This document shows, in pieces, positions 8,753 to 17,579 of a DNA stretch of 64,000 nt. The stretch comes from Eutreptiella sp. 'Long Island Sound 2002'. Taxonomy: Eukaryota; Euglenozoa; Euglenophyceae; Eutreptiales; Eutreptiaceae. Under the pieces are notes generated by a model. It was not told the origin of the DNA and searched no databases. It saw nothing but the letters and a program-made list of their open reading frames with translations. Every line of letters starts with the position of its first letter. Within the stretch, counting starts at the first letter, position 1. Both the position numbers and the translations under genes were made by a program. The stretch is from positions 125,061,708 to 125,125,707 of the forward strand of contig OZ038381.1 in assembly GCA_964036045.1 (NCBI GenBank). The letters are read 5' to 3'.

Positions 8753-9329
8753 CTAGACATGGCCTGCCGCAGCTACCTCCTGCTGGGATCCGCTCAGACT
8801 TTGTCCACCACGTTGCTGGGCTTTGAGTTCCTCCAACGTCCTCAACATATCCTCAGCAACCTCCTCGATCGACCTCACGCGTCGGTCTGGACCAGGTCGT
8901 CCACCATAGCCTTTTCCTCCGCGTTTCCCTTGGCCATTTCCTTGGCCTTTTCCACCACTTCCGCCCTTTGCCTTCCAATCGGCAATTCGTTGCTCCTTGG
9001 GCTTCCTGTTGGGATGGGCGGCGAAGTAGGTCTTCTTGTCCTCCTCATATACCTTACAATGCCGGTGGTCATGTGCATGGTTGTTCCCCTTGCCGTAGCA
9101 GACCCAGCAACCGGTGTGCTGCGATCTGTACTCGCGAGATGAGAGCGGCGGGTTCCCGATCCTCCGCGGTTCTCTGCGGTTCTTGGACCTGGGATCCAGG
9201 CGGTTCCACCTGGACCTGTCCTGCCAATTCTCCTTCATGTTGTGCGCTACGAACGCGAAGAAGTGGGCTTCTTCATGATCTTCTGGGGTGGTCACGGTCC
9301 AGAGATCTTGGCCGCTTCCACTCCCTTCC
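8753..9329 (-). pseudogene. Element A gag C-terminal part with zinc knuckle
   Basis: The frame reads HFFAFVAHNMKENWQD, then CWVCYGKGNNHAHDHRHC, a CCHC-like knuckle of the kind that binds genomic RNA in nucleocapsid, and then a Gly/Lys-rich tail and a short helix (EEVAEDMLRTLEELK). It ends at a TAG that replaces a Gln codon of C. The 5' part of the same gag is 7.4 kb away, at 16724 and beyond, separated by the LINE. The residues GSGQDLWTVTTPEDHEEAH are encoded on both sides because they lie in the LINE target duplication. Confidence 0.9.
9263..9329. repeat. LINE target-site duplication, left copy (67 bp)
   Basis: Identical to 16724-16790 except for one base seen by eye (TTCTGGGG here, CCTCTGGGG there). 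Both copies encode the same gag residues. Confidence 0.92.
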
Positions 9330-9752
9330 GCACGTAGACACATTTTGAGTCCGGTGAAGACTGTTCGATCAAATTTACACTGCAAAACTACTTTACAGCA
9401 GAACCCAGTAGGCAGAGTCACCCGATGGATGCCCCTCACGCCATTGGGTCAGTGGAAATTCGGGTGCTCGGCGCCTCGAGATCCTGCAGGGCATCCGCCG
9501 GCACATGAGGGGGTGATATATGCAATATATCATGAGAGTTGGATGTGCATTCGAAACTGTAAGCAAAGCTTGGCTAACAGAGGGTACTTTCGGCTGTGGT
9601 CAGGGTGGATTAGCTAGCTACATCGTGTGGAATTACTGGAGGCATGAGGAGAGACGTACAACAGGTTCAGGCCGCTAGTTCGGGGGGAAGAATCTGTCGA
9701 TCCGAGGCTGTTTGGGATCAGGAGGGTGTGCGGCCTGGGGGGGGGGGCGGGT

Positions 9753-10500
9753 TCACTGCGCTTTCGCCCTTTGTGCTGCACCTGGGCTCCGTCGCGTTGG
9801 GGTGGCGCAGGGGGAGGAGGGGGGGGGACCGGGGCCAATAGGCTGCAGGTAGGCGTCCAGAGCGCGTTGCGCTGCGCTGGGCTTTGCTGGCTTGGGCGGT
9901 GCCGGGGGGGGGGGGCGTTTTTTCCGCTGTGGTTGATCTGAGGCTTTGCGCTTCGGGGGTGTCAACACCGCCTCAGGCAGGGCCGAGGGGGGAGCGTATT
10001 TTGGCGGGTCCCGGGGGGCATGGCCTCTGGAGGTACTGAATTCACCCAGGGAATCAAAATAATTGTTTCTGGTTACTGGTGGGCCGATGGCCCCGGGTGG
10101 GTTGTCTTGGAGAAATTTGTTGGCGTCCTCGATGAGTGGCGTGAGGGCCCTATTGCGTTTAACCAGGGCGCTGTCAAAGTCCTTAGCATGCATGGCGGGG
10201 TCCTTGCCTGACGGGGACTTTGCAAGCGTTGTGTGGAGCGTTTTTGGGACGAGCGTTCTGGTAGCGAGTCGTCTGTCCCCACGGTCGCTGGCTATCCACC
10301 ATTCGAGTGCTAATTTGTCAAAAGGGGGGGGCCAGGCGCTGGAGAGACACTGCTGGAACCACTGCATCCTGGGACAGAGGGCGCAGAATGAGATGGGATC
10401 CATCGGGTGCACTTCTTGACATTTAGGGCATGTTCGGTCACTGGTGTCACAGTGAGGTCTGTAGCCCTGACAACCATACGTGCCTGACACCCACTTGAAT
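9753..10500 (-). pseudogene. LINE C-terminal region with Cys/His cluster
   Basis: The frame overlaps and follows the RNase H frame, shifted near 10490. It reads KWVSGTYGCQGYRPHCDTS then CPKCQEVHP and FCALCPRM, a cysteine/histidine pattern like the zinc-binding C-terminal domains that follow RT or RNase H in many LINEs and that bind template RNA. The rest is Pro/Lys/Arg-rich and low in complexity, with long C runs on the coding strand (for example 9908-9917). The end of the protein is uncertain. I infer that it is the tail of the same polyprotein, since the alternative frame of the RNase H part stops at once. Confidence 0.6.
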
Positions 10501-11514
10501 GCGAATTGCCGAGAAAAAGCTGCTCTGTCGGAGAAAGCTTGCACTGGTGCTGAAGTGCAGCCGCGTGTGTGGGTGGGTCGGGAAGAGGGAGCGGGTGTGG
10601 TGTTTCGGAATTTTTGAGATGAGGGCTAGGCCCCCACTAGTGACCACTCCCGCAGGGGGGGGGGGGGGGGGGGGTAGGAGGGAGGGGTGCCACAGTAGTG
10701 CTTGAGCGGCCCATTTTGAGAAATAGTCCGCGAGCTCGTTTCCCATAAAGTGTGTGTGGCCCTTGATCCAAGCCACATGGATCGCCCGGGGGAGGGGGGC
10801 GAGGAGGGATGTGTAGGCAGTGTCTCGTGTGCCCTGTGTGTAAGTGGACGGCCTCGCTGGGGGGGGGCTGGAAAGGGCCCGGTTGACCGCTTCGACTGTG
10901 TCAAGGTTATCACTCAGGATCACCACCGGAGTATTGGGGAGGATGTTGGGGAGGTGTGCTAACGCCATTGCCATGGCCCATTGCTCGGAGCACCCTGAAG
11001 TGGGCGAGGGTGACGAGCGGCAGGGGACGTAACACTGTTGTTGCCAAAAGATAGCGAAGGCGCTGCCATGGCCCCCATCACCCCAGCTTCCATCCGTATA
11101 AATCCACGCCGTGTCATCAAAGGGGAGCTCGGCGACGAGGTTAGCCGCCTGAATGCACCCCCACCCCATTAGATCCTCATGGTTTAGAACGTGGCGGAGG
11201 TTAGGCAGGTGGAACCAGTGTCCTTCACAGGTGCTATCCATGAGGTCCGCTTGAAGAGGAACCGGGATGTCGGGGTTGCGGGTTTGCGGGGTAGAGAAGG
11301 GTGAGAAAAGGTGGTAGTGGGTTATGTCACCCGGGGGGAGGGGAGGGGTGTTTGGGGGGGGTGAAGGGGAAATTACTCCGTTCCGTGATGGTAGCGGATT
11401 CCCCGGTGTCGAAGCAAATGGTGGCTGTTTTTTTGTAGACTTTGGTAACCGTGGCCAGGCAGGGGGCGGCATTTTGGGGTGCAGCATACAGTCGTTCCCG
11501 CTCGCGTAGTTCAC
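10447..11514 (-). pseudogene. LINE RNase H domain
   Basis: Type I RNase H, which removes the RNA strand during cDNA synthesis. The catalytic set is visible: Asp in WIYTDGSWGDGG (about 11087-11106), Glu in SEQWAMAMALAHLP, Asp in VVILSDNLDTVEAVN, and the His/Asp end in WIKGHTHFMGNELADYF. About 130 residues of Pro-rich sequence precede it. Its frame differs from that of the RT ORF, which it overlaps at 11327-11514 in a C-rich tract. A polymerase slip, a recent indel or programmed shifting would each explain this. The domain itself looks intact. Confidence 0.85.
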
Positions 11515-14500
11515 AGGGGAGGCAGGGGTTCCATGGTCCAGGGGCGTGGAATCGTAGACTCAGGCGGTTGGCCGCATCCAGGAAGCTATCTTGAAGGGCA
11601 TTTTGGCTTGTTGAAAGGAGGGCGTCTCTAACTGCCACACAACTGGCCGGGGGTCCGTCCTGGTTCAGGTACCTTAGTCCCGCCTCAACAAAAGACTTGT
11701 GAACCGCTTTTCCCAGGTGGCGGAGGCCTAGCCCCAGTTTAGCACGTGGCTGGTATATGTCCTTAGTGGAGACTTTGGGCGAGATTCTGCCATGCGTAGC
11801 AAGCCCTTTCCAGACCGCTGCCGTGAGTTCATCTATTTCGCTGGGGAGAAAAGGGTGGGCAATGAGGCGGTAGGTGAGGATTGGTATTAGTTGGACATTC
11901 ACCAGTTTAACCAGCTCAGGGAGGGTGAGGCGAAGCGGGGAAAGGTGTACGAAGTAGCTGTTCAGTTCCGAGTGTATTTGGTGACGGAGGTGCGGGGGGT
12001 GCTTATCGTTGTAGATGTAAACACCCAGGTATTTGTAGCCCTTCCGTGGCTGTTTGGTATCCGGGTTGACAGTGGAAAGTGTGAAGCCGCTTGGGCTCTG
12101 GAAGTCATGCTGTGGGGCGCCTCCCAGGGCGTGCACCTCTGACTTGTCACAGTTCATTTGGAGCCCCCATGTCCTGGCGTCCGTGTCATAGAAGTCAATT
12201 AACTTTTGGATGTAGGTCTGGGAGGGTGATCGGTACAATTTGTCATCGATGAAAGCGTGTGCTGAGGTCTCGGCGGGTCTCTCCAAAGGACAGGGTTGAG
12301 GGGCTGCATGGAGCAGCACGTTAGAATAAAGGATGAACAGGACAGGGGACATGGGGTATCCTTGGCGGAGGCCCCTGGTTTGGAGGTAGTGGTAGGGTGT
12401 GACATTGTTGACAAGAGGGGCATCCTGGGGGTGGGCGTAGAGTCCACTGATCAGGTCTACCAGTCCGGCCGGCATTCGATAGTGGTGGAGGACCCGACGG
12501 AGGGTGGGGTGGGAAAGGCTGTTAAAGGCCTTCTTAAAATCAATGTAAAAATGGTAGGCCTGTGGGCTTCGGGCGATTTCTGCTGTGACGTGAAAAAGGT
12601 GGTCCGTGGTTCGGAAATTTGGCATGCCCCCGTGTTGGCTGTGGTGCATGAGGGAATGATCTCTGATGAAGGTTTGGAGGGCGGAGGCGGCATGTCGGGC
12701 GACTAGCTTGTAGACAGTGTTTAAAAGGGCTATTGGGCGGTAGTTTGCGGGGTCGTGGGGGCATTTTTTCTTGTAGATCAAACATACTTGGGCGGTCGTC
12801 CAGTGGGGAGGCAAGGGCTCATGCAGGAAGCGATTTACCACCAGAAAGAAGAGCGTCTGCAGGTGGGGGGGGAGGACGGAGAGCAGGTAGGTGTTGGTGT
12901 GGTCGTCTCCTCCTGCCTTGCGCGGGTTAGCCGAGTGGAGGATGTCGGTAAACTCTGACCATGTCATGTCCGGGATGTCCTGAGTTTCTGTGCCCGAAGG
13001 GCACTGGGGTGTGTGGCTCAGGAGGCGCTCTGTGAAATCCTCAGGGGGGGTGTAGTCAGGCGAACCCCCCAAGTGGAGGAGCTTTTCCGAAAATATCTTT
13101 GCAACCTCTTTGGTGTCTGTAGCAAGGGTTCCGTTAGAGCGCCTGAGGGAAATTGGAGCCTGATCCGGGGGTTGGAGGTGTTTCTGGATGGCACTCTTGA
13201 GTTGGCGGCCCTGGACGATCGCTCTGTGCACCGCGGTCCGGGCCGATTTCTGTTTCACTTTCTGCCATTCATCGAGGTAGTCATTGAGCTGCCTCATTTT
13301 TTCTCCAAAACGGGGGTGGGAGGCTGGGGGGAGGGCATTGGCCAACTGGGTGAATTCGTTTTGAATTTTGGACGGGGCTGTCCCTCCCGCCGGGGTGGTA
13401 ATCGAGTGGTAGGCCTCCGAGCACTCTCGGAGAATGGCGTCCACTACCGGGACCAGGTCAGAGGTCGGGACGTCAGGGAGGTGTTTGTTAAAGTCCTCAC
13501 ACCATTTCTCGAGGGGTTGCAGTCCCCCTTGAAGACGGAGCAATTCCTGTTTCTTTAGCCTTCGGAAGCGTTTACGGGGAGGTGGGGGGGATTGTGTGGG
13601 GATGAGGGGTGAGTGCAGTTGTGCTGTAACAGGGTGGTGGTCGCTAGAGCAATCACCATAGAGAATTGAAGCGTCAGCAATTTTTTGGTCATGGAAGAGG
13701 CTCCTCGAAGCAAAGATGTAGTCCAATCTGTTCTTAGACGCTGGTCGGGTCCACCCCAGGGCAGTGCTGTGCATGTGTCGGTACGTGTCGATCCATGACG
13801 GGTTACCGCCCGATGTTTTGGAAGTGACCCAGGCCCACGGGTTGGAGTCGGCGTGCAAGGAGTCTAGATGGGGATTGCGGATGCAGTTGAAATCCCCTCC
13901 CACCACATGGTAAGGGTATCGGGAAAGAAGACGCGACAGGTTGATTTCAATCAGGGGGCGCCTGGTAATTGCGGGTGGGGGAGAGTAGAGAGAAGTGAGG
14001 AGCGTGGGGGGGCCGCCTGGGAGGGTTATTTCAACCGAGCACATGAGTCCATCGTTGTCTGAGTTCGGAACAAACTTTGTGTAGGGCCGCAGAGCCGAAG
14101 AGACCACGATGGCAGTGCCATTCTTTTTCTCTCTCTTGTTGATGTTGGTGAAAATTTTGCATTTTTCTCCCCCGTGGCTAAAGATGTGTGGGAGGCTGGG
14201 CTCTTCGTTCAGTTCCTGGAGAAGCAAGACATGGTATCCTTTTTGTAGGTGGTGGAAAATGAAGGGGGTGGGGGGTTTCTTTTCCAGGTTGTGTGAGAGG
14301 ATTTTGATCGTGGGGGGCGGGGGGTTGTTGAGCTTTGCAGCTGGGCGCACATACCCCTTGCTTTGCCTCCAATTGGTCACGGGAGGGGGCTCAAGACCAA
14401 AGCAAGCCAGGTCGGGCAAGCGTGATGGTCGCGGGTTTTTAGGAGTGGGGCGGGGGCGGAGGGGTTCAGAGGATGGAGGGGGGGTGCTCAAACGATGCGC

Positions 14501-14650
14501 GCTGGGTTGAGGGACGCCGAGGCGTTGAAGCAGTTCGTTAAGCTTGCCCGCTGCCGTCTTGAGTCTCGGCGTCGGGCTCGGCGTCCAGAGCACACTGCAG
14601 GTTGCGAAGGATGACCGCCACTCGCCGGTCCCGAGGGACTTCGGTCCCAT
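11327..14650 (-). CDS. LINE endonuclease-reverse transcriptase ORF
   Basis: 1,107 codons without a stop. The APE-type endonuclease, which nicks the target, occupies about residues 95-340: LLLQELNEE, VVGGDFNCI, RLDYIFASR and SSDHHPVTAQ carry the expected Glu, Asp/Asn, Asp and His/Asp residues. The RT follows (about residues 560-820): CPHDPANYRPIALLN, FYIDFKKAFNSL with the first catalytic Asp (near 12540), TRGLRQGYPMSP, and AFIDDKLYRS (near 12245) as the catalytic box. This box reads FIDD rather than the more usual F/YADD. A thumb region of about 250 residues follows. The first ATG (14650) is probably not the natural start, because an AlkB frame runs into it. No LINE clade can be assigned by eye. 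The combination of APE endonuclease and RNase H fits I/R1/Tad-like or plant-type L1 elements. Confidence 0.88.
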   Translation of the reverse strand: MGPKSLGTGEWRSSFATCSVLWTPSPTPRLKTAAGKLNELLQRLGVPQPSAHRLSTPPPSSEPLRPRPTPKNPRPSRLPDLACFGLEPPPVTNWRQSKGYVRPAAKLNNPPPPTIKILSHNLEKKPPTPFIFHHLQKGYHVLLLQELNEEPSLPHIFSHGGEKCKIFTNINKREKKNGTAIVVSSALRPYTKFVPNSDNDGLMCSVEITLPGGPPTLLTSLYSPPPAITRRPLIEINLSRLLSRYPYHVVGGDFNCIRNPHLDSLHADSNPWAWVTSKTSGGNPSWIDTYRHMHSTALGWTRPASKNRLDYIFASRSLFHDQKIADASILYGDCSSDHHPVTAQLHSPLIPTQSPPPPRKRFRRLKKQELLRLQGGLQPLEKWCEDFNKHLPDVPTSDLVPVVDAILRECSEAYHSITTPAGGTAPSKIQNEFTQLANALPPASHPRFGEKMRQLNDYLDEWQKVKQKSARTAVHRAIVQGRQLKSAIQKHLQPPDQAPISLRRSNGTLATDTKEVAKIFSEKLLHLGGSPDYTPPEDFTERLLSHTPQCPSGTETQDIPDMTWSEFTDILHSANPRKAGGDDHTNTYLLSVLPPHLQTLFFLVVNRFLHEPLPPHWTTAQVCLIYKKKCPHDPANYRPIALLNTVYKLVARHAASALQTFIRDHSLMHHSQHGGMPNFRTTDHLFHVTAEIARSPQAYHFYIDFKKAFNSLSHPTLRRVLHHYRMPAGLVDLISGLYAHPQDAPLVNNVTPYHYLQTRGLRQGYPMSPVLFILYSNVLLHAAPQPCPLERPAETSAHAFIDDKLYRSPSQTYIQKLIDFYDTDARTWGLQMNCDKSEVHALGGAPQHDFQSPSGFTLSTVNPDTKQPRKGYKYLGVYIYNDKHPPHLRHQIHSELNSYFVHLSPLRLTLPELVKLVNVQLIPILTYRLIAHPFLPSEIDELTAAVWKGLATHGRISPKVSTKDIYQPRAKLGLGLRHLGKAVHKSFVEAGLRYLNQDGPPASCVAVRDALLSTSQNALQDSFLDAANRLSLRFHAPGPWNPCLPCELRERERLYAAPQNAAPCLATVTKVYKKTATICFDTGESATITERSNFPFTPPKHPSPPPG

Positions 14651-14744
14651 CCACCAAATCGCTCATGCGGTAGGGCACCTGATGCTGCCATTGTTCTCGA
14701 AGTTCTCCCGTGACTTGGAGGGCTGAGTATCGTGGTACCCGCAC
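14538..14744 (-). pseudogene. LINE AlkB-like domain, C-terminal half (shifted frame)
   Basis: This frame reads VPRYSALQVTGELREQWQHQ, then VPYR, and later PRDRRVAVILRNL. In AlkB-type oxygenases the second half of the fold supplies an iron-binding His in a (W/H)xHxIP-like context and an Arg-rich RxxxxxR strand that binds 2-oxoglutarate; both can be recognised here. It follows the first half (in 14663-16723) after a shift of one or two bases near 14745, so this copy does not encode a continuous domain. After the domain a further shift leads into the endonuclease frame, which suggests that AlkB and the endonuclease/RT were once one polyprotein or overlapping ORFs. Confidence 0.75.
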
Positions 14745-16723
14745 ACCGGGCCATTTCCTTTACGGAACTCCATGGTGGTAGCCCCCATGAGTGAAATAGA
14801 GGTGATAGTGTCGCCTAGGTCATCGATGTCCTTATGCCATCCTATGCCCACCCCAGGTTCATAGTCGTTCACGCTGACTTGGTTCGGCTCCACCGCTAGC
14901 AGGGGGATGTTCTCCGAGTCTTTAGCGTCCATGAGGTTGTCGATGAGATTCATGAGCTCCGTGGGGAGCTCCTCCGCTCGTTCGAGGGTGTGGGAGGCAT
15001 CCACATACTTCCATCCGTAGTGCAGCTTGCCTCTTCGGGTCTCTCTCACCCATTCCTGTTTCTCGAGGTGGGCCATTAGGGTGGTCTCCATAGTCATGTT
15101 GATGACGTCCTCGATAATGCGTAAGCCCGGGAGGTCTTCCTCCGTGAGGTCCTCCGGTTGTCGATCTTCTTGTCGCGGCGGGCGGCGAGGCGGGCGTAGG
15201 AGTGTTTGATGCTCCTTGTAGTTGGCGATGTAGTCCTTGAGGAAGGCCCCCGCGCCGACGTTCAGGCCCGCTCGCACTCGTGCTTCCGCCGGGCGATCCT
15301 CCTCAGCCACCGAGGGGTCGAGTTGTAGGAGTGTGTCAACCTGTAGATAAGGTTGGGACGGGTGAAAGGAAATGGGGCCCACAGCAAAACCCGTGGCAAA
15401 TTGAGCGGATTGGAGCTTCTCATAGGTGACGGAGTAGAAGCTTATGGGAGGATTTTCGGATCTCGAGTGGAGTTCAAACCGCGTGAATGGGCCTAGGAGA
15501 CCCGCCGCACATTGAATGTGAAAAAGTGAGGTCGTGTTGGGCGCTTGGACATCCACCTCGTTTGGCTCTCCCTGACTAGGCATCGGCGGCGTAATAGAGA
15601 CCATGGTCGGCGGAGATTTAGGGTGGGCGTCCTGCTTGCCTCCTTGTCCAAATGCATTGAAGGTGATCAACGCTCCGTCCTTTGAGGTGCACATTACCAT
15701 CGCTCCATTAGTGTGGAGGAAAGAGGCAAAGGTAGAGAGAGGCGAGCGCCCTTCGTCGCTTGGGGTATTGCTAAGGTCCAATCGGACTATCACGCTATCC
15801 CGGCTCTTGATTGACGTGCCCATGACACGGGTGCGCCCTCGTCCCCCAATCATGTGGCCCATGAGGGTGTTCATGACCTCGGTGGGTGTAAATTCTCCCT
15901 TGTGGCGGTTCCTCTCGTTGCGTGACGGGTTCACAAAAAAAGAGTGTTGGTCAACCATTTTTGCCACTTCAATCACATAGAATCGCCCTCGTAAGAAATC
16001 TCCATGCTCCAAAGCCACGGACATAAGTTCGTTTGCAAGAGCCGGAGCCATGGTATAGTCGTACGGATAATAATTTGGGTGTGGTGCACGAAGGGCTTCT
16101 CCGTTCTCAAAAAGATATTTGCAATTGGTGGTAGTCGCCGCGCCCTCAAAGTCCGGTGCAAGCGTATTGTTCAACCATTTGTAGAAGTCCCGCACGTTGC
16201 CTAGCTCCGCTTTCTTTCGGGTGTTGGTGTCTTCTTGGTCACTCGGGAGCTCTCGTTGATCGATGATCTCGCGTAGCACGTCAAATCGAAGTAGGACATG
16301 CACTTGCTCTATATCCAAGTTGGTACTTTGATGTACCAAGCGACGTAGGCTCAAGGAGTGGTCAACCGTGACGCTCGGGTGCTTAGACGGAGCATACCAT
16401 GATTGGGAATGAAGTCGGTAGGCGATGTATGGCACGGCGAGGGCATTCCCCAAAATGTATTGGGCGTTCTCAACGTTTTGGTTGCCGGGGATCCACCATT
16501 GCTTTGCATCATGGAAGCTAAAGCGTTGCGTAATAAAGGGGCGTAAGGGAGTGAGAAGCAAACGGGGGTCAACCAACAAGCAATTTTCCGCATTGCAATT
16601 TTTAATGGGCGCCGGTAACATGAACCATCCCTCGAACTCTTCGTTGCGCGAGCGGGCTAGTTGAAGGGCGTGTCCTATTGAGGCCGCCCAATCCGTCACG
16701 GTCTCTACGGTGGTTCCCAAGTC
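14663..16723 (-). CDS. LINE upstream ORF with AlkB-like oxygenase N-terminal half
   Basis: The open frame runs from the LINE 5' end to 14663 and is also open into the gag upstream (to 17272). The first 500 or so residues (from DLGTTVETVTDWAASIG) match no family I recognise. They are soluble-looking, with no membrane segment or zinc motif. After a Pro/Arg/Glu-rich hinge (near 15140-15200) comes LPGLRIIEDVINMTMETTLM and then AVEPNQVSVNDYEPGVGIGW followed by HKDID. This is the AlkB signature NxYxPGxxIxxHxD with its iron-binding His and Asp (near 14830), and SISLMGATTMEFRKG is the next strand. AlkB enzymes oxidise methyl groups off nucleic-acid bases. In a LINE such a domain could repair or demethylate element RNA or cDNA, but that is inference. 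Confidence 0.8.
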   Translation of the reverse strand, partial: DLGTTVETVTDWAASIGHALQLARSRNEEFEGWFMLPAPIKNCNAENCLLVDPRLLLTPLRPFITQRFSFHDAKQWWIPGNQNVENAQYILGNALAVPYIAYRLHSQSWYAPSKHPSVTVDHSLSLRRLVHQSTNLDIEQVHVLLRFDVLREIIDQRELPSDQEDTNTRKKAELGNVRDFYKWLNNTLAPDFEGAATTTNCKYLFENGEALRAPHPNYYPYDYTMAPALANELMSVALEHGDFLRGRFYVIEVAKMVDQHSFFVNPSRNERNRHKGEFTPTEVMNTLMGHMIGGRGRTRVMGTSIKSRDSVIVRLDLSNTPSDEGRSPLSTFASFLHTNGAMVMCTSKDGALITFNAFGQGGKQDAHPKSPPTMVSITPPMPSQGEPNEVDVQAPNTTSLFHIQCAAGLLGPFTRFELHSRSENPPISFYSVTYEKLQSAQFATGFAVGPISFHPSQPYLQVDTLLQLDPSVAEEDRPAEARVRAGLNVGAGAFLKDYIANYKEHQTLLRPPRRPPRQEDRQPEDLTEEDLPGLRIIEDVINMTMETTLMAHLEKQEWVRETRRGKLHYGWKYVDASHTLERAEELPTELMNLIDNLMDAKDSENIPLLAVEPNQVSVNDYEPGVGIGWHKDIDDLGDTITSISLMGATTMEFRKGNGPVCGYHDTQPSKSRENFENNGSIRCPTA

Positions 16724-16790
16724 GTGGGCTTCTTCATGATCCTCTGGGGTGGTCACGGTCCAGAGATCTTGGCCGCTTCCACTCCCTTCC
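16724..16790. repeat. LINE target-site duplication, right copy (67 bp)
   Basis: Second copy of 9263-9329, at the 5' side of the minus-strand LINE. It is immediately followed on the minus strand by the first LINE codons. Confidence 0.92.
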
Positions 16791-17579
16791 TCTGCAGTGT
16801 TAACCGTGTCCCCCTTGACCTCTCGCTGCTGGCGATCTGCTCGATGACCTCCATGTCCATGGCCCTGTCGATCCTGCACGTGGGCCTCGTTCTTGGCGTT
16901 GAGCTTCAGCTCCACCGTGATGTACTTCACGATCTCGTCCAGGCTCATGCGGGCGAAGATGACCTGCATCCTCAGCTGTTCTCTGCGCCTCCACTCCACG
17001 TTGTTGAGGCGCATCAGCTTTTGCCCCATGGTGTCGCCGAATACCTCCACGTAGACGGCTTTCTTCAACCCCAACATTCGGCTGGGCTTGCCGAGGTTTC
17101 GCCGGTAAAACTCCATTATTCCGGCGTGGGTGTCCTCCGATGCCATGATCCGTACGGCCACGCGCTTCTTCGCTCTCTTCTTCTCCTCGTCCTCCACTCG
17201 CCTGTTCCAGTGGCCGGGGGGGACGTCCTTCAGCAGGTGGCGGATCTCGCTGGCCTCATTCCAGTCCTCCACCAGCTTGATGCTTCTTTGGTACTTGCGG
17301 ATGTACCGATTCCATTCTCGGATCCCTCAATTCCCCGCGCTCTAGCGGCAGCGGAATGGACCTAAAATCCTCCAACTTCTGGTTGGGGGCGTCCACTCGC
17401 TCCTCGTCCTCCAGCCACTCGAGGCAGGCCTGCTTCGTCTGGATCAGTCCCTCGCGGATCTGATCCCTGAGCTCCTCCTCAGGTCCTGCGCCAGCCTGTG
17501 TGGGAATGTCCGACATACCAACTTGTCCCTTGGCGCTCCCTTCATCTCGCCGACGACCTCCTCGGCGAAGTCCTCCCAA
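16724..17579 (-). pseudogene. Element A gag, central (capsid-like) part
   Basis: The frames 17256-17579 and 16724-17272 together match C gag residues of the capsid region: ELRDQIREGLIQTKQACLEW, WNEASEIRHLLKDVPPGHW, KKRVAVRIMASEDTHAGIME, and QVIFARMSLDEIVKYITVEL. These helices are of the kind found in Ty3-type capsid. Frameshifts at about 17330 and 17450-17480 break it. The last part runs in frame into the LINE ORF, giving an 869-codon chimera. Confidence 0.85.

Follow-up and report, generated by a model that had tools for sequence, protein, structure and literature searches.

Does a retrotransposon without long terminal repeats (LTRs) carry its own AlkB-type oxygenase? The question arises from a 64,000-nucleotide stretch of the Eutreptiella sp. 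'Long Island Sound 2002' genome (contig OZ038381.1, positions 125,061,708 to 125,125,707 of the forward strand; hereafter the window), in which a first-pass annotation read an AlkB-like domain upstream of the endonuclease and reverse transcriptase (RT) of a long interspersed nuclear element (LINE). AlkB is not a standard LINE part. We find that the domain belongs to the LINE, as the annotation had proposed: the profile match, the catalytic residues, the further copies, the pattern of substitutions and the predicted fold all support this. Our preferred reading, to which we give a probability of roughly 0.55, is that a lineage of LINEs has a first open reading frame (ORF1) ending in an ALKBH8-like AlkB domain under purifying selection, which likely works as an Fe(II)/2-oxoglutarate oxygenase and rids the RNA or nascent cDNA of the element of alkyl marks or lesions.

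The window LINE lies on the minus strand at 9330..16718, delimited by its flanking repeat, its domains and comparison with full-length copies, and belongs to the family designated A below. All domain coordinates that follow are likewise on the minus strand. A direct repeat on its 3' side (9258..9329), probably a target-site duplication (TSD), pairs with one on its 5' side (16719..16790) over 72 nt at 96% identity, with 48 nt exact. The long N-terminal region of ORF1, which has no recognized fold, occupies 15122..16726 and is 93% identical to residues 266-800 of protein P0001; it begins internally as a result of 5' truncation, and its first bases overlap the flanking repeat. The AlkB (2OG-FeII_Oxy_2) domain forms the ORF1 C-terminus at 14607..15019, as located by profile and tblastn. 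Two tblastn pieces of the domain join at a frame break at 14741-14744, with the iron-binding HxD motif (14828..14836) before the break and the second iron-binding His (14682..14684) and the 2-oxoglutarate motif RxxxxxR (14604..14624, RVAVILR) after it in another frame, so the full HxD...H...RxxxxxR set is present but split. Read in the sequence, HxD and the second His are conserved in 22/22 aligned family A rows and RxxxxxR in 21/22, L026 not being covered there. The peptides and motif plan cited by the first-pass annotation were thus located, after the frame slip it described. Its span of 14538..16723 was right at the lower end, where the AlkB frame and ORF1 stop (14538-14540); 16723 is a truncation point rather than the true 5' end, because full-length family A elements measure approximately 8.16 kb. 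The second frame (ORF2) encodes an endonuclease (PF03372, 13697..14272), an RT (PF00078, 12017..12769) and an RNase H (PF00075, 10708..11106), each placed by Pfam profile and mapping, and is broken downstream of the RT. With both reading frames broken, the window copy is dead, and the question is therefore whether its family carries AlkB.

The PF13532 (AlkB) profile has a curated cut-off of 31.2 bits. It scored 34.8 bits (E=2.5e-8) against the part of the window copy that precedes its in-frame stop, 52.9 bits (E=6.9e-14) against the unbroken ORF1 of a sibling copy of family A, and 47.0 bits (E=4.6e-12) against an unbroken ORF1 of family B, a second family described below. The annotation had named the lack of such a match as grounds for dropping the domain, and the match was found. 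A pseudo-match is ruled out by the Pfam profile, by the search against solved structures and by structure comparison.

When the 2.28-Gb genome from which the window comes was searched with PF13532, the best 150 of 1107 candidates were scored and at least 151 matches were obtained, among them ordinary-looking host AlkB genes. Twenty loci were picked from this list for long open frames. A LINE endonuclease was found in all 20 (partial in L010) and an RT in 19; the exception, L022, is a family B copy with a long tandem array after its endonuclease (L022:5098-9945), which is open in all three forward frames. The loci fell into family A (12 loci), to which the window copy belongs, and family B (8 loci). 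In unbroken copies of both families, AlkB is in frame with the long N-terminal region in a single ORF1 of approximately 1000-1140 aa, stands beside the endonuclease/RT, and keeps the HxD...H...RxxxxxR residues. The ORF2 frame starts before the end of ORF1 in several copies (e.g., L011 and L018). PF03372 and PF00078 scored above cut-off in A and, in two pieces, in B. Family A elements are approximately 8.16 kb at full length (9.2 kb in L026), and exact 14-17-bp repeats flank the element in five of the 12 family A loci. No flanking repeat was found in six of the remaining seven (two of them cut at the 5' end); L010, which lies in a tandem array, was excluded from this count, and the 5' ends of family B were outside the fetched stretches. 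On these repeats the elements were classed as having TSDs and lacking LTRs, no separate search for LTRs having been made. AlkB copies are spread over many chromosome-size contigs. Families A and B are deeply divergent, with 24% identity in ORF1 (over 834 aa) and 38% in ORF2 (over approximately 1200 aa), and HxD...H...RxxxxxR is present in both. If AlkB was acquired once in their common lineage, it would be at least as old as the A/B split.

Because these 20 loci had been chosen by AlkB, a second sample was drawn by endonuclease. The family B endonuclease search returned 6913 candidates, of which the best 107 were scored; ranks 2 to 21, a set of high-scoring copies rather than a random sample, were taken, and 901 bases were fetched from each where AlkB was expected. 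AlkB was present directly upstream of the endonuclease in 20/20. Sixteen of these domains have no stop or frame break, L053 and L062 having a frame break and L063 and L068 a stop. The catalytic residues are retained almost throughout (first His in 19, Asp in 20, second His in 20, first Arg in 20 and second Arg in 19 of the 20). Copies of the LINE lacking the domain, which the first-pass annotation had regarded as a sign of capture in one copy, were thus not encountered here.

The first-pass annotation had proposed a dN/dS test on the domain, and the substitution pattern points to purifying selection. Pooled within-family pN/pS for AlkB was 0.28 in A (22 rows) and 0.23 in B (8 rows), within the range of the RT (0.22) and endonuclease (0.32) of A; the corresponding values in B were 0.46 and 0.23. 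Differences confined to a single copy were taken as mostly post-insertional and those shared by copies as differences between source lineages, with substitutions counted by site and majority codon and not on a tree. Shared AlkB substitutions were mostly synonymous in both families. In the first set, whose copies had been chosen by AlkB, omega was 0.16 for shared and 0.55 for private differences in family A (Fisher p=2e-5) and 0.13 and 0.32 in family B (8 rows); in the 20 endonuclease-chosen B copies it was 0.20 and 0.62 (Fisher p=0.019). Since shared omega in the family A endonuclease and RT was lower still (0.07 and 0.06), the AlkB domain looks constrained, yet less so than the polymerase.

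AlkB domains were also found in further LINE groups. Subfamily B2 (P0021) is 52-53% identical to B. In family C (L051), an AlkB frame of 222 aa is immediately followed by an endonuclease frame; the endonuclease is 36% identical to that of B and then 45% beyond an insertion, its first piece falling below every Pfam model and being identified through its similarity to B. Upstream of the family C AlkB, nothing resembling the N-terminal part of ORF1 turned up, so this family shows AlkB before the endonuclease and not an ORF1 fusion; the fetched stretch held no RT. Approximately 14 kb separates the AlkB of family C from the sole 100% match to the B2 ORF1, which is on the same contig (G000:C4:154495774-154513928). 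In family D (L049:2280-3377, L052:2242-3339, L074:3-2600), ORF2 is 38% identical to that of A over 821 aa, and AlkB occupies a 365-aa frame of its own, immediately past the C-terminal part of ORF2 with its RNase H region. The N-terminal half of this frame is rich in serine and glutamate. The two family D copies are 98.9% identical over 5 kb and may therefore represent one event. Family E (L050:348-3345, L073:493-4106, and the upstream stretch L075) has an RT approximately 21-23% identical to that of A, followed by a stretch resembling the C-terminal part of ORF2, and an AlkB frame some 1.1-1.2 kb past the last RT-side frame. It comprises two loci, 88% identical over 3.8 kb, with frames broken in places; L075 resembles an endonuclease by eye. 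PF13532 scored 58.5, 49.2 and 52.0 bits in C, D and E, respectively, and HxD...H...RxxxxxR is present in A, B, B2, C, D and E, with a changed residue in some single copies. The AlkB trees pair D with E (support 96/96 in the first tree and 100/99 in the second), whereas the family D RT is near those of A and B and distant from that of E. Given this disagreement, the D/E module may have been captured twice, moved, or exchanged.

By sequence and by tree, the LINE domain is ALKBH8-like. Among solved structures, the ORF1 profile matched human ALKBH8 best (E=5.8e-21), followed by S. pombe Ofd2 (1.1e-14) and C. elegans NMAD-1 (3.1e-7), with weaker matches to ALKBH7, ALKBH2 and ALKBH6 (2.7e-4 to 8.6e-4) and to ALKBH5 (0.047). 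The second tree combined host AlkB sequences with 22 bacterial ALKBH8-like sequences, taken from 56 that were free of stops (60 of 80 loci tried); its bootstrap had yet to settle completely, and it contains several long branches. L002, present in the first tree, was dropped from the second, and two of 20 extra AlkB pieces (L035 and L048) were left out beforehand for want of a recognizable AlkB frame or a tblastn match to LINE domains. The domains of A, B, B2 and C formed one group (88/82) and those of D and E another. Host and bacterial ALKBH8-like sequences formed a group of their own (94/95), with the A/B/B2/C domains beside and not inside it; all of these shared a 34-row clade (96/87), apart from six other host AlkB sequences. 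Two ALKBH8-like sequences, L034 and L036, look like host genes, as do those six (L001, L003-L006 and L008). In ORF1, Pfam recognized PF13532 alone, with no RNA recognition motif (RRM), zinc finger or methyltransferase; bacterial and one protozoan ALKBH8 are reported to lack the RRM and zinc finger as well (PMC4051686). Family B retains R393, H397, G399 and Y402, which show little or no variation among 50 bacterial relatives and lie in a stretch N-terminal to the core that is expected to form the nucleotide lid. A model of a family B protein from a 55-row alignment had a mean predicted local distance difference test (pLDDT) score of 58 as a whole and 10-residue block values of 84-97 across the AlkB part (residues 351 to 550), the only part in which it is usable. 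A Foldseek search with this model placed ALKBH6 first in the PDB and ALKBH8 fifth, all 50 matches listed being AlkB-family proteins, and the domain is predicted with confidence to adopt the AlkB double-stranded beta-helix fold. Predicted viral structures also match the AlkB fold, at 10-26% identity among the matches listed.

The window copy interrupts a Gypsy-like LTR element in its gag frame, and the gag sequence continues on both flanks; the Gypsy label comes from a reading of the frames. This sequence is the insertion target, and the interrupting element, whose ORF2 has a LINE-type endonuclease, RT and RNase H, is not an LTR element with a Gypsy polyprotein. At 14663-17326 (minus strand) the gag frame runs by chance into the LINE ORF1 with no stop, producing an 887-aa chimeric frame, and database protein P0029, with RT and AlkB in one 733-aa frame, seems a comparable accident. 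Protein searches for relatives returned one, none and thirty proteins; P0021, one of the thirty, was found at 100% in this genome, and the other 29 are 86-97% identical to the query. For the ORF1 N-terminal part, searches of Pfam, NCBIfam, PHROGs and PDB sequences gave no relative, and nothing was drawn from a 743-aa ORF1 model built on an 8-row alignment (mean pLDDT 32.5). A scan of viral contigs gave no relative.

LINE ORF1 proteins generally bind their own RNA. If the ORF1 protein of these elements coats the element RNA, it would carry the oxygenase to its template (delivery being assumed), where the enzyme would oxidize N-alkyl groups at which reverse transcription stalls or which serve as marks on the RNA. 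Their removal, from template RNA or nascent cDNA, would take place before or during target-primed reverse transcription. As a first guess, candidate substrates are 1-methyladenine (m1A), 3-methylcytosine (m3C) and etheno-type adducts, since enzymes of the ALKBH8 family are active in vitro on lesions of this kind and are reported to repair m3C and etheno adducts in DNA (PMC4051686). Demethylation is only one of the possible activities, since the characterized ALKBH8 members are described as hydroxylating the wobble uridine of tRNA, as repairing etheno and methyl lesions, or as doing both (PMC4051686). A broader proposal, which we hold more tentatively and at somewhat below even odds, is that an oxygenase able to dealkylate RNA or DNA is core LINE machinery of this host. 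The module would have been gained or moved on at least two occasions, ahead of the endonuclease in A, B, B2 and C and after the RT in D and E, and would clear host marks or damage from the template or nascent strand during target-primed reverse transcription.

Several observations weigh against the preferred reading. Among relatives of solved structure, the one nearest in sequence is an enzyme that hydroxylates tRNA, and ALKBH5, an eraser of N6-methyladenosine (m6A), is reported to suppress L1 in mammals (PMC7873242). The ORF1 N-terminal part matches no RNA-binding family in the databases named above. Protein searches and the viral-contig scan traced nothing to another species, so that the same fusion, which the first-pass annotation had suggested looking for in related species, is known here from the copies of one genome. 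Endonuclease-first sampling covers family B and not family A, to which the window copy belongs. Family B has N, M and A at positions 443, 444 and 448, where D, Q and N of PDQ..NxY are invariant in 50/50 bacterial relatives; family A retains the Asn that B lacks, and this Asn is among the 2-oxoglutarate-stabilizing residues named for ALKBH5 (PMC9289625). Finally, shared omega in B was a weak 0.27 for the RT and 0.92 for the RNase H (2 synonymous, 6 nonsynonymous), the latter with no visible constraint, and small counts of shared substitutions are therefore noisy.

Other explanations of the domain were weighed against the same evidence. It could instead strip m6A from element RNA, or N6-methyladenine from new insertions, and so evade host recognition or silencing. 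The AlkB frame of orchid Gypsy elements is reported to demethylate m6A in vitro (PMC9289625), and NMAD-1, deposited as a DNA N6-methyladenine demethylase, came third in the profile search; the domain is nonetheless ALKBH8-like rather than ALKBH5-like by a wide difference in E value, and the suppression of L1 by mammalian ALKBH5 runs the other way, so that we regard mark erasure as unlikely. Somewhat less likely again is an action on host RNA, in which tRNA hydroxylation or modification of the ALKBH8 type would favor translation of the element. ALKBH8 is the nearest solved relative by sequence, its members in two protozoa, one of them an AlkB domain alone, are described as hydroxylating the tRNA wobble uridine (PMC4051686), and family B keeps the residues of the expected nucleotide lid; set against this, Pfam found none of the accessory domains of ALKBH8 in ORF1, the ALKBH8-like proteins of host and bacteria form a clade that excludes the LINE domains, and the host seems to own ALKBH8-like sequences (L034 and L036).

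ORF1 proteins need nucleic-acid binding. AlkB might therefore be the binding module of ORF1, with catalysis irrelevant; Pfam recognized no other such domain, and family B is without some residues invariant in bacterial relatives. Mere binding would not need HxD...H...RxxxxxR, and for this reason its retention across families at 24-38% identity and in 19-20 of the 20 endonuclease-chosen B copies makes a purely binding role improbable. A window copy that is broken and nested in another element might raise the suspicion of an assembly artefact, or of a single copy that picked up part of a host gene by chance. This is the least probable explanation by far: capture in one copy is ruled out by the 20/20 endonuclease-chosen B copies together with two deeply divergent families, and the copies lie on many chromosome-size contigs.

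Among known systems, the closest report found is that of an AlkB (2-oxoglutarate-dependent dioxygenase, 2-ODD) frame in Ty3/Gypsy elements of Phalaenopsis, which is likewise borne by a retrotransposon, has HxD...H and RxxxxxR, and is described as kept over replication rounds; its product is reported to bind RNA and demethylate m6A in vitro (PMC9289625). As described there, the Phalaenopsis carrier is an LTR element with a separate, recently gained, ALKBH5-like extra frame (PMC9289625), whereas the elements described here are non-LTR and ALKBH8-like, with AlkB either fused to the ORF1 C-terminus (A, B and B2) or encoded by a frame that follows the RT (D and E). Plant RNA viruses (flexiviruses and closteroviruses) resemble the LINE as RNA-borne replicators with an AlkB of their own (cited in PMC9289625), but have it within replication proteins and do not reverse transcribe. 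The ALKBH8 family (human, protozoan and bacterial) is the best sequence match and falls in the same half of the tree; unlike its members, the LINE domain is part of ORF1 and forms clades of its own, with no RRM, zinc finger or methyltransferase found. In the endonuclease-RT-RNase H order of ORF2, TSDs and 5' truncation the elements are like other LINEs, and PDB matches to their RT include human L1 ORF2 and further RTs of the non-LTR kind. They differ in an ORF1 that has no recognized RRM or zinc knuckle and ends in AlkB. In the open-access literature, no LINE with AlkB was apparent from the title or start of the abstract among the matches listed, subscription papers and Repbase reports being outside this scope.

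These elements extend the known carriers of AlkB (cells, RNA viruses, giant viruses, phages and orchid Gypsy elements) to non-LTR retrotransposons and add a type of ORF1 with an enzyme-like end. They also bear on whether modified bases in retrotransposon RNA or cDNA are important enough for an element to counter them. That AlkB has been kept through deep LINE divergence suggests that such modification does matter for these elements, and it provides an enzyme on which the idea can be tested. If a dealkylating oxygenase is indeed part of the core LINE machinery of this host, it would represent a built-in epitranscriptomic or repair counter-measure of a non-LTR retrotransposon.

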